The position numbers and the translations under genes are program-made. A DNA stretch of 64,000 nt, from assembly GCF_026745355.1 (NCBI RefSeq), contig NC_079202.1, positions 49,627,900 to 49,691,899 on the forward strand, written 5' to 3'. Position 1 is the first letter of the stretch. Every line of letters begins with the position of its first letter. Of this stretch, positions 3,030-54,614 are shown in pieces. This DNA comes from Beta vulgaris subsp. vulgaris (taxonomy: Eukaryota > Streptophyta > Magnoliopsida > Caryophyllales > Amaranthaceae). The notes beneath the pieces were generated by a model, which did no database searches, had not been told where the DNA came from, and saw only the letters and a program-made list of their open reading frames with translations.

Positions 3030-3185
3030 TGTATGTATTCGTCTTTTCCTTCCAACTTATTTTCATTTCAATTCAGTTCAGTTTAATTCAGTTATAACCA
3101 TTTTGCTAAATATTATTATTATGTTGGTCTAATTTATTTTACTAATTATTGTTATTATTATTATTTATTGTTATATCATCATTTT

Positions 3186-3235
<50 letters not shown>

Positions 3236-3853
3236 TATTTTGTTTATTATAACTTTACTCATTATTATTACTATTATTATTAGAAGGAACATGGTTTAGG
3301 TCAAAAGCACAAATAAACCCATGTTTTTTTAGCCCATAAACCAATCAAATTGCGTCAAAACGGTTTATGATGCAATTTTGCGTGGTCCGACCCAATCATT
3401 ATTTTTATTACTATATATTATTATATTATTAAATCTAATTATTAAAATAGTAACATTAATTTACATTATATATTATTATTATTATTATATAATCATCATC
3501 AAGTATTAATATATTAATACAAATAATATAAAATAATAATTATTAATTGTCATTATTATCATTAATTATTATTATTATCAATTTATGATTATTAATATTA
3601 TTTATTCATAACTATCATTTCAAAATATCCAAAATACTATTATTATTATTCATTATTATTATTATTACTTATCATTATAATTATTATTTAATATTCATAT
3701 TATTATTGTTTAAATATTATTTATATATTTATTACATTCAGTTTAATTCAATTCAATTTAATTCAATTCAATTCAGTTGAGTTCAGTTCAGTTCGGTTTA
3801 GCTCAGTTTAGTTCATTTCGGTTCAGCAGTTTTATGTCGAAGAAAACATGTCC
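3030..3853. mobile_element. Tourist-like MITE of the TTCAG family, copy A, with (ATT)n core
   Basis: Both ends consist of reiterated TTCAG/TTCAA pentamers and the core is an ATT/TTA microsatellite. The unique segment around 3105-3160 (TATTATTATTATGTTGGTC and onward) and the segment with CCCATAAACCAATCAAAT also occur in copy C at 52483-53435, so these are one family. The right end reads AACATGTCC followed by TTA, matching copy C's AACAGGCCC plus TTA. The left terminus has decayed, so its position is approximate. Confidence 0.65.
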
Positions 3854-15275: not shown

Positions 15276-18200
15276 ATGGAGGAGCCAGAAATGAGTACAA
15301 AGATGAAAAAGTTGCTGTTGATACTAAATTGCTTCATGTTAGCAATAGGAATAAGTGCAGGTCCACTTATTATGAGGTTGTATTACATACATGGTGGTAA
15401 AAGCATCTGGCTTTCTTCCTGGTTGGAAACTGGTGGATGGCCTGTCATGATTTTACCTCTTCTAGTTGCTTATTTTCGTCGACGTCGTACCGATCCCGAG
15501 GCGAAGCTCTTCTACATCAAGGCCAATACCTTTTGCTATGCAGCCATTGTTGGTAAGTAATAGGAGCATCATACAAGAATACAAGCTTATCTGCTTATTC
15601 TATCTGTTGAGGGTACTCAGTACTCAGTACTCAGTACTCAGTACTCAGTACTCAGTACTATACTGTCTGAATGAAAGCATAATTATCACGTTATTGTTAG
15701 ATATAGCATCGTCCATCACCTAGCTAGATATGTGCCGTTTAGAATCGAGCAACGTTGGGATTTTCATTATCCCGAGGAGGTAGCTTCCATGTTTTGATGG
15801 ACACTTTGTCCTTGAATTAATTTATGCACGATCTTTTTTTTTTTAAGAAAAAGAGTAATAAGTGAACCAAGTATATCCTCTTGGATATTCTGCGAAAAGA
15901 TAGTTGTTCCATTAGAATTTATGTGTGCAAGGGTGTGTTTTCTTCACCTTATGGAAAATATGTTTCAGTAATTGAGCGCAATTAAATGTAAACATGAGGT
16001 ATTTTTTGAGAGTTGATTAAGTCTAATCATGTTTTTCTTAGGCAACTCCAAGGTAGTCAAAGGTGAGGTGAGTGCCTTAGTGGTCTACCACTCTTTCTCT
16101 TTGACAAAAGTTCTACTTTGTTGAACCTCCAATAATCATACTGTTAGGATATATTTAGAGTATATAGGAAAATATATTCTAAACTGAACATAATATTAAG
16201 AAATATTTATTTATAAATACACATTATTAGAAATTTTAGATAAACATTTCTCAATAGATGGATTTAGGAAATACTCCTAAATAAATTCTAACACGTACCT
16301 TTAAATCGGTCTATTATATTCTTTATATGCTGCACTTCATAACAATATTATATTCTTTATATGCTGCACTTCATAATAATATTAGACAAACTAGTTTACC
16401 TTTGTGCTTGTATGCACAATCTTTTAACATAATTTTCCATTTTATGGCTAATTTAAGATAAGAAAAATTTTCAAGTTTAACAATCACATTTCTTATGTGG
16501 TTCAACCAATTACATTTACTGCAAATATCCATTTTCTTTTTAAAACAATTTTCGAACACCTTTTATGTATGAAGTCTCTGCTTTTCTTTGTTTATCCGAA
16601 CTTATCTAGACTTTTTATACCTTATTTTATAAGTGTGTCGAACCTTATTTTGTTAATATGAATTTATTTGATCATATTAGACCTTATTCGTCCTTATTAA
16701 ACCTTATTTAAACTTATCTAAATTTATGTTTAACTTATCTGAACCTATTTTTTCATTAAGAACTAGAAATAAAACAAGTTGAATGGAGAACCAAAAACCC
16801 TTGTTTTGTTACCACTTACTAATGTGATCCCCAATTATCCATGTGCCAGGACTAGTGGCTGGATCAGCAGACTATTGTTATGCATATGGAGTAAAACACA
16901 TACCAGTCTCAACATCATCCTTAATCCTAGCAACCCAACTAGCCTTCACAGCTGTATTTGCCTTCATATTAGTAAGGCAAAAGTTCACAGCATTTTCAGT
17001 AAATGCTGTTGCTCTACTAACCTTTGGAGCCATTGTGTTAGCACTTCATGCCGGCAATGATAGACCGGCCGGTGAATCGAAGGCTCAGTACTTCGTAGGT
17101 TTCTTCTTCACCCTCGCTTCGTCGGCCTTGTTTGCTCTTATGCTTCCTATGATTGAGCTCACTTACAGAAGAGTTAAACATACAGCAGTTAACTACTCTT
17201 TGGTAATGGAGATTCAGCTTGTGTTATCTTTTTCTGCTACTGCTTTGTGCACTGTTGGAATGCTTGCAAGCGGTGATTACAAGGTATGTAATATCATCTT
17301 CATCTTATATTAATATGTTCAATTTGTTTAGTCATGATGACTGATCTAGACTAATCTTGCTTGAATCAGTTCTTGGAATAAAACCTGCAAAAATATAACA
17401 GAGCACATCTTAGGACCTGGCCTGACCCGTTAATATTTCCTCGTGGGTCCGTTAGTGGCCCAACCTGTTAAAGAATTATGGGCCTGACCCAATTATTAAT
17501 GGGCCAGATTAGGAATTTTACTAGGGCTCCGCCGGAAATATGTCTAGTTAGAGCCACGATTTTCTAAATTTAGATTCATATAGAATAAAAGAGGCGGCTC
17601 AATCAACTGTTCTCATTCATTACTTCAAGGTTGATACTACACAGCTATATATACAAAAGAGTGTGGATCCCTAGGTTTACACAAGTAGATAAAATACTCC
17701 TAGGATCCACTAGAAATGTGACAACACATAATGAGCAAGGACAAAGATACTACCAGCTGCAATAGCTACTACAAGGAACTAAATAGGTTCAATAAAGGGC
17801 TAAGTAGAGACTTCTAAGGAATACTAGAGACTATTAAGGAATACTCCTTTCTTCACTCCCCCTCAAGCTGGTAGTGAAGGTTGAACTGCCAGCTTTAGAC
17901 AAAATGTAGTATTGTTGAGCAATAGAGATAGGTTTAGTAAAAATATTTGCTAATTGCTCTTTAGAAGAGACATATTGAGGATCAACGAAACCATCTGAAA
18001 CCTTGTCTCTAATATAGTGACAATCAATCTCCACATGCTTCATTTCCTCATGGTGTGTAGGATTGACTACAATGGATAGTACTGCCTTGTTGTCACAATT
18101 AACTACCACAGAGTGAGTAGCTTTGACCCCAAGGTCTTTAAACAGTTGTGTAAGCCATGATATTTCACATGTAGTAAGAGCAAGAACCTTATATTCTGCC

Positions 18201-21200
18201 TCAGCACCTAGATATTTCATATGGAAGGATGAAGAAAGGAAATTCTTAGTTTGATCAATTAGAGAGCTAGAGTTTCCTGCCAATATCAAATCATCTACAT
18301 ACACCAATACAGTTGCAAATTCTTTTCCCATGTGTTTTAGTGAATAATGTATGATCACTTTTGGATTGTTCATACCTAAATTGCTGAAGAGTTGTTGACA
18401 GTTTGAAGAACCACTGTCTAGGGGCTTGTTTTTGCCCATAGAATGATTTCTTTAACTTGCAAACTATGTTGTGAGAGACAAGCTCCCTCTGTCCAAGACT
18501 CACTCTACACCATGACTTGCATATCCCAAAGGTAGCTTCATATACACATCTTCATGTAAATCACCATGAAGAAATGCATTTTTAACACCCATTTGCTTCA
18601 CAATCCACCCTTCAATTGCAGCAACAGCCAATAAGGGTCTTACAATTGTCAATTTGGCAATTGGAGCAAAAGTTTCTCCATAATCCACTCCATATTGTTG
18701 CCTGCATCCCTGATGACAAGTCTTGCTTTATGTCTTTCAATATTGTCATCTGACTTTAATTTTGTTTTGTATATCCATTTTGATCCAATGGTTTTCTTGC
18801 CACTAGGTAGTTATGTAATGTCCCAAGTATCATTGAGTTCCAATTAACACAATTCATCATTCATTGCATCCATCCACTCTTGCTATTGAGCAACTTGTTT
18901 GTGAGAAATCGGATCAGCATCTTTGATCAGTTCATTCATGAATGCGTAGAACACAAGAGCTACATTGGCATCCGAGCTTGGCTTAGTCCTTTTGGTGTGT
19001 AAAACATAGCTACTGCCAAGAAGGTTGTATGTGATCTCTTGTTGACCTTCTTAGAGCTGGAGGAGAAGGAATGACTACTTCAGGAGAGGCAACTTCTTCA
19101 TGTTGCTCTGGAGTAGGCAAATCAACTAGATCTTCTTCATTGTCTGTAAGAACAATAGGATCAACTTATTGATCAAAGTTGTTTGTGTCTTCCACATGCT
19201 AATCTCAAGTACTAGGTTTGTGTTGGATCCTCCTCAAAATCATCCCACACTGAATTTGAGATTTCACCTGTTTTAAGCTGTGGAAGAGACACAGGATGAG
19301 GATGATTATATTGTTTATGCTAAGTTATATGATTGTGAGGATATATATCTTCATGAAACTTTACATCTCTGGACACAAAAACTTGGTTAGTAAGCAAGTT
19401 AAGTAGTTTATATCCCTTGTGGATATCCCAAGAAGGTACAAGGTACACGCCTTGATAAAAACTTATCTTTGTTCAAGGCTGGATTATAAGCCATGGCTAA
19501 GCACCAAAATGATTTAAGGTGATTGTAGTCAGGCTTCCTTTTGAACAACTTTTCATATAGAGACACATTGTTCAAAACTGGTGAAGGCAGTATATTTGTG
19601 ATGTATGTTGTTAACACACAATCTCCCCAAAATCTTAGAGGGAGCCCTACTTGTAATCTCAATGCTCTACTCATCTCCAAAATGTTTCTGTGTTTTCTTT
19701 CGGCTCTTCCATTCTGTTGTGGTCTATCCACACAGGTGGTTTGATGAATGACCCACATTTCAGCATACAATTTTTTACATCTGTGATCATCAAACTCTAG
19801 ACCATTATCTGATCTTATCACTTTTACCTCTTTCTTGAACTGAGTCATCACAAATTTAATAAACTTACACAACATATCATAAGCATCAGACTTGAGCTGC
19901 ATGAGATACACCCATGCCCTGGTGTAATCATCGATTATTATCAAGAAGTACCTGTGTTTGTTTCTTGTTTGAACCCTATAGGGTCCCCAGATATCAACAT
20001 GCAACAATTCAAAATCATTTTCAGCATGTCAAACACTTAAGTTGAATGATAAATTTTTGCCATAGAGCAAGTTAAACACAATATCTGATCATTCCAAGTT
20101 TTAGGTACACAACCAATCTGTTTCAACTTGTCTGCAGGGGCATGGCCTAGCTTATTATGCCATAAAACATATCTATCTTGTTGAAAAACATTACAGACTA
20201 CAACTATCTCCTCAACATCATTACTACTTCTCTTGTGCTTCTTTATTTTGTGTTGTAACTCTTGCAACTTCTCTAGATCTTCATCTACAAGATTGTAAAC
20301 CCCTTGCCTTGCCACACCAAAAGCTTTAGCCTTGTGTGAAGGATAGTCCTGAACAATACAAAACTCAGGATGAAATACAACTTGCAATCGTCTTCCTTTC
20401 ACAAGCTTGTTAACAAACAACAAATTATGTCTGAATTCAGGAACATGTAGGACATTTAACAAATGTAGGCCATTTTTCAGAATGACATTTCCATTATGAG
20501 TAATGTAAGCAGTTTTACCATTTGGTAAATTGATTTTTGGTGCAAAAACAACAGGTTTAGGTTTAACAAGCATATTAATGCAATCGACAATTTGCTCAGA
20601 AGCACTTGAGTCTAAAATCCATATCTTTGATTGAATGCAAGCACTATTGCACAATATCATACCTGCAAAGCTATTTGTCATCTCCTGATCACCATTTCTT
20701 GAGTTTGAGGGAATGAGCTTGAGTAACTGTTCCAGTTGCTGAGCAGTCAAGCCAACACTTCCATCCATTTGAGCATTAGTTGCCCGTCTACTAGCACCCT
20801 AACCATCAGTTTGCCTCTATTAGTCTGTTTCCTCTAAATCCTTGGTTAACACTGCCACTGGAAGATGCTCCTTCTCTTTGCATCTTCTTGGATTTGGCAT
20901 GCCATTTTGGATACCCTATTACCTTCCAGCATCTCTCCTTGCCATGACCCTTGACACCACATATTGAACATCCCTCAATTTCCCTTGCAATCATTGCTAA
21001 ACCTTGAGTTTGAGTGGACTTGCATACATCCTTGAGCTTTCTATCTCTAGCTTACTCACCTTCAACACCTCTCTCTGAGCTTCTTCCTGCTGTAATCTTG
21101 CACAAGCAGTCACAATAGATGGAAGTGGTGTTGTCATTAACAGCTGACTCCTCTCAGTGGAATATTTCTCACTTAGACCATTTAGAAACTGAAATAGTTT

Positions 21201-51572: not shown

Positions 51573-51589
51573 AATAACCCTTAATTGGG

Positions 51590-51709
51590 GGGTGCGATCA
51601 TACCAGCACTAATGCACCGGATCCCATCAGAACTCCGCAGTTAAGCGTGCTTGGGCGAGAGTAGTACTAGGATGGGTGACCTCCTGGGAAGTCCTCGTGT
51701 TGCACCCCT
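51590..51709 (+). rRNA. 5S rRNA sequence, full length, retroposed copy
   Basis: From GGGTGCGATCATACC to GTGTTGCACCCCT, exactly 120 nt, matching plant 5S rRNA throughout. The internal promoter elements are intact: box A (about 51639-51653, GTTAAGCGTGCTTGGG region), intermediate element (about 51656-51661) and box C (about 51669-51686, GGATGGGTGACCTCC). A T6 run follows at 51709-51714, as at a pol III terminator. It is a solitary copy and not part of a 5S array. Whether it is transcribed is unknown. Confidence 0.9.
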
Positions 51710-52116
51710 TTTTTCTGCAAAATTCATTTTTCCTAGCTGGTGCCAAGTCTTTGGGGCCCAATATTTCTATTTTGCAAGCTGAAGCGTGGGCTCTTAGAGA
51801 AGGAATTAAAGGAGCTATTTCTCTTGATATTTCTAATATTATTATTGAAGGAGACAACTTAGCTGTCATTAATTCTATGAAGAATTGTTGGCGTATTCCG
51901 TGGGAAATTTCTAACATTGTGATAGATGCAGGTGTGGCTACTAGGTGGTTTCAGGACTGTCAGTTCCGTCACTGCTTTCGCGAAGCTAACAAGGCTGCTG
52001 ACTTCATGGCTAGGAAAGCGCATGACCACCCCTCCTTACTGTACTGGTTCCCCCCGTACTGTTTGGATTTTTCCCTCATCATCCGAAAGGATGTTTTAGG
52101 CTGGCCCCCAGATTAG
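51710..52116 (+). pseudogene. LINE ORF2 C-terminal fragment, RNase H domain
   Basis: The + frame stays open from within the 5S sequence through FFLAGAKSLGPNISILQAEA, EGDNLAVINSM, and REANKAADFMARKAHDHPS to a TAG stop. This is the RVT_3 / RNase H-like module at the end of plant L1-type LINE ORF2, with acidic residues in the AEAWALREG and EGDNLAV motifs and a final D in AADFMA. The 5' part of ORF2 (endonuclease, RT) is missing by truncation. The frame is undamaged. Confidence 0.88.
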
Positions 52117-52185
52117 GGGGTTAGCCTAAGTTTGTTCTCCTTATCAAAAAAAAAAAAAAAAAAAAAAAAATAACCCTTAATTGGG

Positions 52186-52482: not shown

Positions 52483-52680
52483 GGGCCTGTTCTCCCCAGC
52501 TTATTTTCAGTTCAGTTCAGTTCAATTCATCTCTCTTCAGTTCAGTTCAGTTCAGCTCTCTTCAATTCAGTTCAGTTCAGTTCAGTTCAGCTCAGTTCAG
52601 TTCAGTTCAGCTCCATTCTTTTATAACCATTTTGTTAAATATTATTATTATGTCGGTATAATTTATTTTACTAATTACTC

Positions 52681-52751
<71 letters not shown>

Positions 52752-53435
52752 TATTTTTATATCATTACTATTAAGTATTATTATTATTATTTCTATATAT
52801 TATTTTGTTTATTATATCTTTACTCATTATTATTAGTATTATTATTAGGAGGAACATGGTTTAGGTCAAAGCGCAAATAACCCACGTTTTTTATCCCATA
52901 AACCAATCAAATCGCGTCAAAACAGTTTATGATGCAATTTTCGCGGTCCAATCCAATCATTATTTTTAATTACTAAATATTATTTATATTAAAATCGTAA
53001 TATTAATTTACTTCTTAGATATTATTGTTATTATATAATCATCATCAAGTATTAATATATTAATACAAATAATATAAAATAATTATTATTAATTATTATT
53101 ATTATTAATTTATGATTATTAATATTATTTATTTATAACTCTCATTTTAAAATATCCAAAATACTATTATTATTACTATTCATTATTATTACTTATTATT
53201 ATAATTGATTATTATTTAATATTCATATTATTATTGTTTAAATATTATTTATATATTTATTACATTAAATTAATTCAATTCAATTTAATTCAATTCAATT
53301 CAATTCAGTTCAGTTCAGTTCAGTTTAGTTCAGTTCAGCTCTCTTCAGTTCAGTTCAGTTCAGCTCAGCTCTCTTCAGTTTAGTTCAGTTCAGTTCAGTT
53401 CAGTTCAGCTGTTTTATGCCGAAGAGAACAGGCCC
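52483..53435. mobile_element. Tourist-like MITE of the TTCAG family, copy C (best preserved)
   Basis: GGGCCTGTTCTC at the left and GAGAACAGGCCC at the right are perfect inverted termini, flanked by TTA at 52480-52482 and 53436-53438, as for PIF/Harbinger elements. Sub-terminal arrays of TTCAG pentamers interspersed with CTCTC (52505-52615 and 53270-53410) surround a core with an uninterrupted ATT microsatellite (about 52680-52751). 953 bp, no coding capacity. Confidence 0.88.
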
Positions 53436-54113: not shown

Positions 54114-54614
54114 TTTCCCCAGCCAAGCCACGACTTTACTATAATAGTGGATGCTTCCTTCTCTTCTTCTAATCTCCATGCAGGAATGGGTGCTATCTGT
54201 AAAAACTCAACAAGCCTTTGGGTGGAAGGCATATGTGGGAACATAATCAACAATGATGCTAGTCTTGCAGAGATACTCGCGATTTACAAGGCAGTGTTGT
54301 GGATAAAAGCTAAGCAGTGGACATATTGCATTATTCTCTTTGATTCCTTGATTGTTGTGGACTGTATAACCGAGAATACAAGAATTAAAGATAGATATAA
54401 TAACTATACTATCATGTGCAGGGAGTTACTAGAGGGAGAGGAGCAAATCAAGCTGGAAAAAGTAGAAAGGGTTCAAGTTCAAGAGGCTGACATTTTAGCT
54501 AGAGTGGTTCGCCGGGAAAGTGGGGAGGTGGATGTGTTTCGTCAAATTTGTATAGCTCTATGGGTGAAATTAGGAACTAATCCAGAGGATACTACTTTTG
54601 AACAATTATGTTGA
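54114..54614 (+). pseudogene. 5'-truncated LINE fragment, RNase H domain
   Basis: The frame from after the TGA at 54111 encodes VDASFSSSNLHAGMGAICKN, then SLAEILAIYKAVLWIKAK, ILFDSLIVVDCI and EADILARVVRR, ending TGA 54612-54614. This is the RNase H-like module of LINE ORF2 with the expected D, E and D positions. An A10 run at 54697-54706 is probably its tail. It is a different LINE lineage from the one fused to 5S rRNA. No TSD found. Confidence 0.8.

Follow-up and report, generated by a model that had tools for sequence, protein, structure and literature searches.

A complete 5S rRNA and the 5′-truncated 3′ end of an L1-type LINE lie within one pair of target-site duplications (TSDs) in the genome of sugar beet (Beta vulgaris subsp. 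vulgaris), a unit that we attribute, with a probability of about 0.75, to a single target-primed reverse transcription event with a template switch onto a 5S precursor. Across dispersed copies the 5S head recurs with differing partners, and the best reading of these is that LINE reverse transcription switched recurrently onto sense 5S precursor RNA in beet.

Anatomy of the 5S/LINE unit

The window, by which we mean the whole 64-kb stretch analysed (C1:49627900-49691899 of a 569-Mb sugar beet assembly), contains at 51573-52185, in this order, a TSD copy, an intact 5S rRNA, a short linker, a 5′-truncated LINE 3′ end, a poly(A) and the second TSD copy (Table 1). The bracketed structure was confirmed as real, as were the three components that an initial annotation had recognized: a complete 5S, a truncated LINE with RNase H, stop codon and poly(A), and one perfect TSD around both. 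The 5S matches Rfam RF00001 with 113.9 bits over model positions 1-120 and is present once within the window. The LINE matches the RVT_3 (RNase H) profile with an E value of 2.1e-18 from position 26 to 123 of 123, so the domain is N-truncated. An open frame at 51613-52116 spans the 5S into RNase H, a crossing that is taken to be incidental.

Table 1 Features of the 5S/LINE unit (window positions) and of dispersed 5S copies elsewhere in the genome
Feature	Position	Strand	Description or basis
Left 17-bp TSD copy, AATAACCCTTAATTGGG	51573-51589	.	Sequence repeat search
Complete 5S rRNA, 119 nt	51590-51708	+	Rfam; 100% to C5:31824003, identical to genomic 5S copies
Putative 5S 3′ spacer read-through, 23 nt	51709-51731	+	Identical to spacer at C5:31824003-31824144 (L056); T6 at start, T5 run (51727-51731) at end; final base common with LINE
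L1-type LINE 3′ end	51731-52145	+	Partial RNase H, stop 52114-52116, short 3′ UTR
Poly(A), A25	52146-52170	+	Final two A overlap right TSD copy
Right 17-bp TSD copy	52169-52185	.	Sequence repeat search
5S copy in window			Partner: LINE 3′ end
L054	C6:14536333		Perfect 5S and 10 nt, then a DUF4283 frame; probable LINE 5′ end
L055	C2:36035424-36035556		T9 then A16, perfect 15-bp TSD; poly(A) class
L062			Poly(A) class, A16
L068			Poly(A) class, A7
L058, L059, L060, L061, L070			SINE-like tails
L066	C11:30924250-30924277	-	Bare 5S head, 44 nt
L065	C6:65327954-65327981	-	Bare 5S head, 44 nt
L067, L069, L071			Unclassified older copies

The TSD sequence occurs in the full 64-kb window only at 51573 and 52169. 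A 17-bp match in equivalent flanks was obtained in 1 of 3,000 random placements, probably the element itself, with a next best match of 12; among the 27 runs of A10 or longer on both strands, two were preceded by a repeat of 12 bp or longer, and 17 bp was reached at the 5S/LINE unit alone. On the strand of the element the insertion site is GTC/AATAAC; U6/L1-type insertions are expected at TT/AAAA, a preference that this LINE may or may not share. Because 5S nucleotide +1 is flush with the left TSD copy and the upstream 5S spacer is absent from the unit, we favour an RNA intermediate. These same features, together with the single TSD around the pair and the terminal poly(A), make it extremely unlikely that the join arose at the DNA level, through array DNA captured in repair, or from an assembly misjoin, even though array DNA does move, as at L057 (where the exact-match scan found no flush repeat).

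The linker and the proposed point of switching

Aligned LINE copies read ...TTCTGGGGAGGTTCTCCTAGCTGG, and LINE sequence in the window begins at 51731 (51728 if one mismatch is allowed), which moves the LINE start from the position, 51715, given by the initial annotation. A start near 51733, taken from a protein-level reading of the junction, was discarded when the DNA alignment shifted it to 51731. The best 5S match elsewhere, among the best 40 of 374 candidates, is C5:31824003-31824144, where 142 nt, comprising the 5S and 23 nt of spacer, are identical. This copy stands in tandem with one other 5S, at a step of 349 bp. Its spacer reads TTTTTTCTGCAAAATTCATTTTTTTTCCCG and holds T8 at the point matching the second T-run of the chimera, and the TCC at the switch point is common to array, chimera and LINE.

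Judged by this identity, the linker is the native 5S 3′ spacer, which would make the copied RNA an untrimmed 5S transcript of 142 nt with its 3′ end in the second T-run; we infer that a real 5S precursor in the cell may end there. T6 (51709-51714), read at first as the U-tail lying at the junction, does not mark it, as the putative transcript continues 17 nt beyond T6 into the second T-run. Of the template-switch reading offered with it, the single insertion, the LINE machinery and the RNA-level join to 5S are supported, template switching being the best explanation of that join, and the T6 junction is not. Two other origins for the linker were rejected. As LINE sequence, or the product of an internal LINE jump, its best ungapped match to the full-length copy L009 on either strand is 16/23, random 23-mers scoring 13-16 at the sampled quantiles; as a copy of the target flank, it matches at 16-17/23, a figure that has no null of its own.

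The LINE family and the search for a second junction

At least 42 places match the element (best 40 of 719 candidates scored). Merging two split-row pairs and omitting the window leaves 39 distinct LINE places (L002-L008 and L011-L042), with L009 and L010 being longer cuts of L003 and L007. Identity to the closest LINE copies (best 40 of 719 candidates) is 99.3% over 418 nt, so the family is young. L009 is a full-length copy of approximately 6.0 kb with a 16-bp TSD; L014, L016, L022, L028, L035 and L036 have repeats of 12-17 bp, the other copies having repeats of at most 10 bp or none within the stretch, with no null computed for these lengths. Frames of L009 carry RVT_1 and zf-RVT and the window copy carries RVT_3, a set that fits a plant L1 with RNase H.

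Within the stretch read, a 5S is absent from all 39 other LINE copies (best 40 of 719), the one match found being a 13-bp chance match in L006. Upstream reading covered approximately 1.2-1.5 kb for most copies and approximately 6 kb in the case of L009 and L010. Longer copies with a 5S at their distant 5′ end would escape it; the shared-junction result is affected for L025 alone, in which the sequence directly upstream is unreadable. Conversely, none of the 39 other 5S places listed (best 40 of 374) extends from the 5S spacer into the LINE. On these two best-40 sets, the 5S/LINE junction is not a SINE family, as it had been proposed to be should other copies share it. Exact junction patterns were found 0 times in viral and 0 times in bacterial and archaeal contig collections, and of 11 small contigs, read over their first 10 kb, none contained a 5S. 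Pieces of the junction translation used as queries matched 3 proteins with 3 candidates, an uninformative outcome.

In the SINE3 plan, a LINE tail follows a 5S that carries its internal promoter. A LINE fragment might accordingly have landed in a 5S repeat, with the read-through composite then retrotransposing as a young SINE or a non-autonomous element driven by 5S. Although the beet unit has the SINE3 plan (PMC10886601) and five other places are SINE-like behind a 5S head, we hold this origin to be very improbable, as no second junction was found in the two sets of 39 places (best 40 of 719 and best 40 of 374) and read-through would be hindered by the Pol III stop that separates the 5S from the LINE.

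Dispersed 5S copies outside the arrays

In the genome search with 5S (best 40 of 374 candidates), 31 of 40 rows clustered on C5 and 9, including the window, were isolated; the C5 clusters were read at L056 and L063, and both are tandem. A second search used a pattern built to leave out arrays, which carry GAC before the 5S, and returned 18 matches against 0 in a reversed-pattern control. Of these, 4 were known already, 7 belong to the C5 cluster and the other 7 (L065-L071) are new. This pattern needs the 5S 5′ end and so under-samples 5′-truncated copies; the earlier search covers either strand within its best 40, and the counts from both are lower bounds. Together they give at least 15 isolated non-array 5S places, window included. 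The other option of the initial annotation, a rare one-off, is thus too weak, as the beet genome holds at least 14 further dispersed 5S insertions with other partners. One of the 9 isolated rows, L057 (C12:7529748; partial 5S, spacer, partial 5S), is a piece of array DNA and does not enter this count; it lies far from the arrays and looks like a DNA-level capture.

The partners of the 14 further copies are a LINE 5′ end in 1 (probable), SINE-like sequence in 5, poly(A) in 3, nothing beyond a bare 44-nt head in 2, and unclassified sequence in 3. The probable LINE 5′ end, L054, is identified by DUF4283, found in ORF1 of plant LINEs. A blastn comparison of L054 with L009 gave no match, and the stretch sought for its 3′ end reads N. 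TTGAC stands before its 5S, as before array copies, and may represent a short remnant of array DNA or a coincidence. In the poly(A) class, L055 is a 5S that became a processed pseudogene on its own. Assignment to the SINE-like class is based on box-like motifs in L058, L060, L061 and L070 and on a match between L059 and L058 (77% identity over 83 bp), the one pair for which the repeat nature of these tails is shown. The box A/B-like motifs are matches to simple patterns of a general consensus, and ARAGORN found no tRNA gene in the tails of L058, L060 and L061.

Fourteen places were tested for TSDs against shuffled left flanks, with an exact-match scan in addition. Repeats abut 5S +1 at 6 of 15 places, window included (5 of the 14 further copies). 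No shuffle in 200 did as well as the repeats of the window (17/17), L055 (15/15), L066 (17/18) or L065 (11/13), and 4 of 200 did as well as that of L059 (13/16). L061 has an exact flush 10-bp repeat by the exact-match scan, for which there is no null, the range of the shuffle scan having ended short of it. At L058, L060, L062, L067, L068, L069, L070 and L071 nothing rose above chance, between 52 and 180 of the 200 shuffles doing as well, and neither scan found a TSD in 8 of the 14 tested places.

The second T-run corresponds to array-unit positions 138-145. BLAST endpoints fall at 140-144 in 6 of 15 copies (window, L058, L059, L060, L062 and L069) and at 135, 133, 133, 129, 124, 112, 103, 44 and 44 in the remaining 9, where an endpoint may shift by a base or two through chance Ts at the join. 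Thirteen of the 15 copies extend to position 103 or beyond, all in the sense orientation.

Proposed mechanism

According to the model that we favour, the target would be nicked and reverse transcription by an L1-type beet LINE would start at the poly(A) of the LINE RNA, copying some 415 nt before the enzyme jumps to a nascent 5S precursor, still untrimmed, at its 3′ oligo(U) end. The precursor would then be copied to its first nucleotide and the cDNA joined there, giving the single 17-bp TSD. In favour of this model are the perfect TSD flush with 5S +1, the native spacer continuing to a T-run, the missing upstream spacer, the youth of the LINE family and the TSDs of its copies, and the dispersed 5S copies with their flush repeats, their endpoints in the second T-run and their differing partners. 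We infer that template switching, rather than earlier RNA ligation, made the join. Ligation of a 5S precursor to a 5′-cut LINE RNA, followed by retrotransposition of the fusion from its poly(A), predicts identical anatomy and has been named as an alternative for U6/LINE-1 chimeras (PMC13174262), but no feature of the sequence favours it and the common TCC suits a switch slightly better, though 3 nt may be chance; we regard it as unlikely. Weighing against the template-switch model itself are the 9 of 15 endpoints outside the second T-run, the 8 of 14 places without a TSD by either scan, the putative status of the 142-nt species and the dependence of the SINE-like class on box motifs and one 77% match.

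More tentatively, and at somewhat under even odds, the nascent untrimmed 5S precursor may be the preferred switch acceptor of LINE reverse transcriptase in beet, whatever the template (LINE, SINE or poly(A)), filling the role of mammalian U6 and providing a standing source of 5S-headed composites.

Comparison with known chimeras

The beet unit resembles mammalian U6/LINE-1 chimeras, in which a full-length sense Pol III RNA lies 5′ of a 5′-truncated LINE within one TSD (PMC13174262, PMC4476161). Of the features that define that type, the beet unit has the single TSD and the sense full-length RNA with truncated LINE and poly(A); it differs in that the RNA is 5S with read-through spacer and the host a plant. 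Switching onto U6 is described for several LINE clades, from birds to mammals (PMC4476161). Among 253 LINE-1 chimeras of known type, 70.9% involve U6 and 10.5% 5S, and 20 of 27 mammalian 5S/LINE-1 chimeras have TSDs of 7-17 bp (PMC13174262). These have the same two partners as the beet unit. However, in the mammalian set it is U6 that is full length and sense, the 5S typically being antisense and truncated, often at 46 and also at 90 (PMC13174262), whereas the beet 5S is sense, full length and 3′-extended. The beet unit uses 5S the way mammals use U6. The two bare heads L066 and L065 are both cut at nucleotide 44, and both have target-site repeats. By position, a 5S cleavage site common to these heads (44) and the mammalian chimeras (46) is possible.

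WEIRD and MGL of Magnaporthe grisea likewise join an abundant non-coding RNA and a LINE in one bracketed retrogene for which template switching has been invoked (PMC2104539), with another RNA, another LINE and a fungal host. SINE3 and other 5S-derived SINEs share the 5S head and LINE-derived tail (PMC10886601, PMC3747384) but are repeated families, unlike the beet junction, which has no second copy among the best 40 of 719 and best 40 of 374 candidates. Cassandra TRIMs are, like the beet unit, plant retroelements carrying 5S (PMC10853983, PMC10886601). They are LTR elements with 5S inside the LTR and a TSD of approximately 5 bp, whereas the beet unit has poly(A), a 17-bp TSD and a single 5S in the window. 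Titles and abstract openings of the open-access literature yielded no plant 5S/LINE chimera, which is weak evidence of absence, and the main text of BeetRepeats, which covers 100 beet LINEs and 123 SINEs, uses 'chimer' 0 times (PMC11603912).

If correct, the template-switch reading would extend LINE switching onto Pol III RNAs to plants and mark the precursor form, with 3′ oligo(U) and before trimming, as acceptor, placing the switch in the nucleus. In addition, it would capture the raw step that sets a small-RNA promoter before the tail of a LINE or SINE, a step by which SINEs are presumed to originate. 5S-headed composites of this kind could give rise to 5S-derived SINEs or 5S-carrying elements; Cassandra is described as derived from a 5S-headed SINE (PMC10886601).

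Other features of the window

A second RVT_3 frame lies at 54114-54614 (E 1.4e-11), too unlike the first for tblastn to detect it in the window. Broken frames on the minus strand at 17834-20798 resemble a Copia-type polyprotein, the translations being judged by eye. At more than one place (3062-3826, 52506-52847 and 53082-53408), TTCAG pentamer arrays adjoin arrays of the trinucleotide ATT, which suggests a repeated composite unit.
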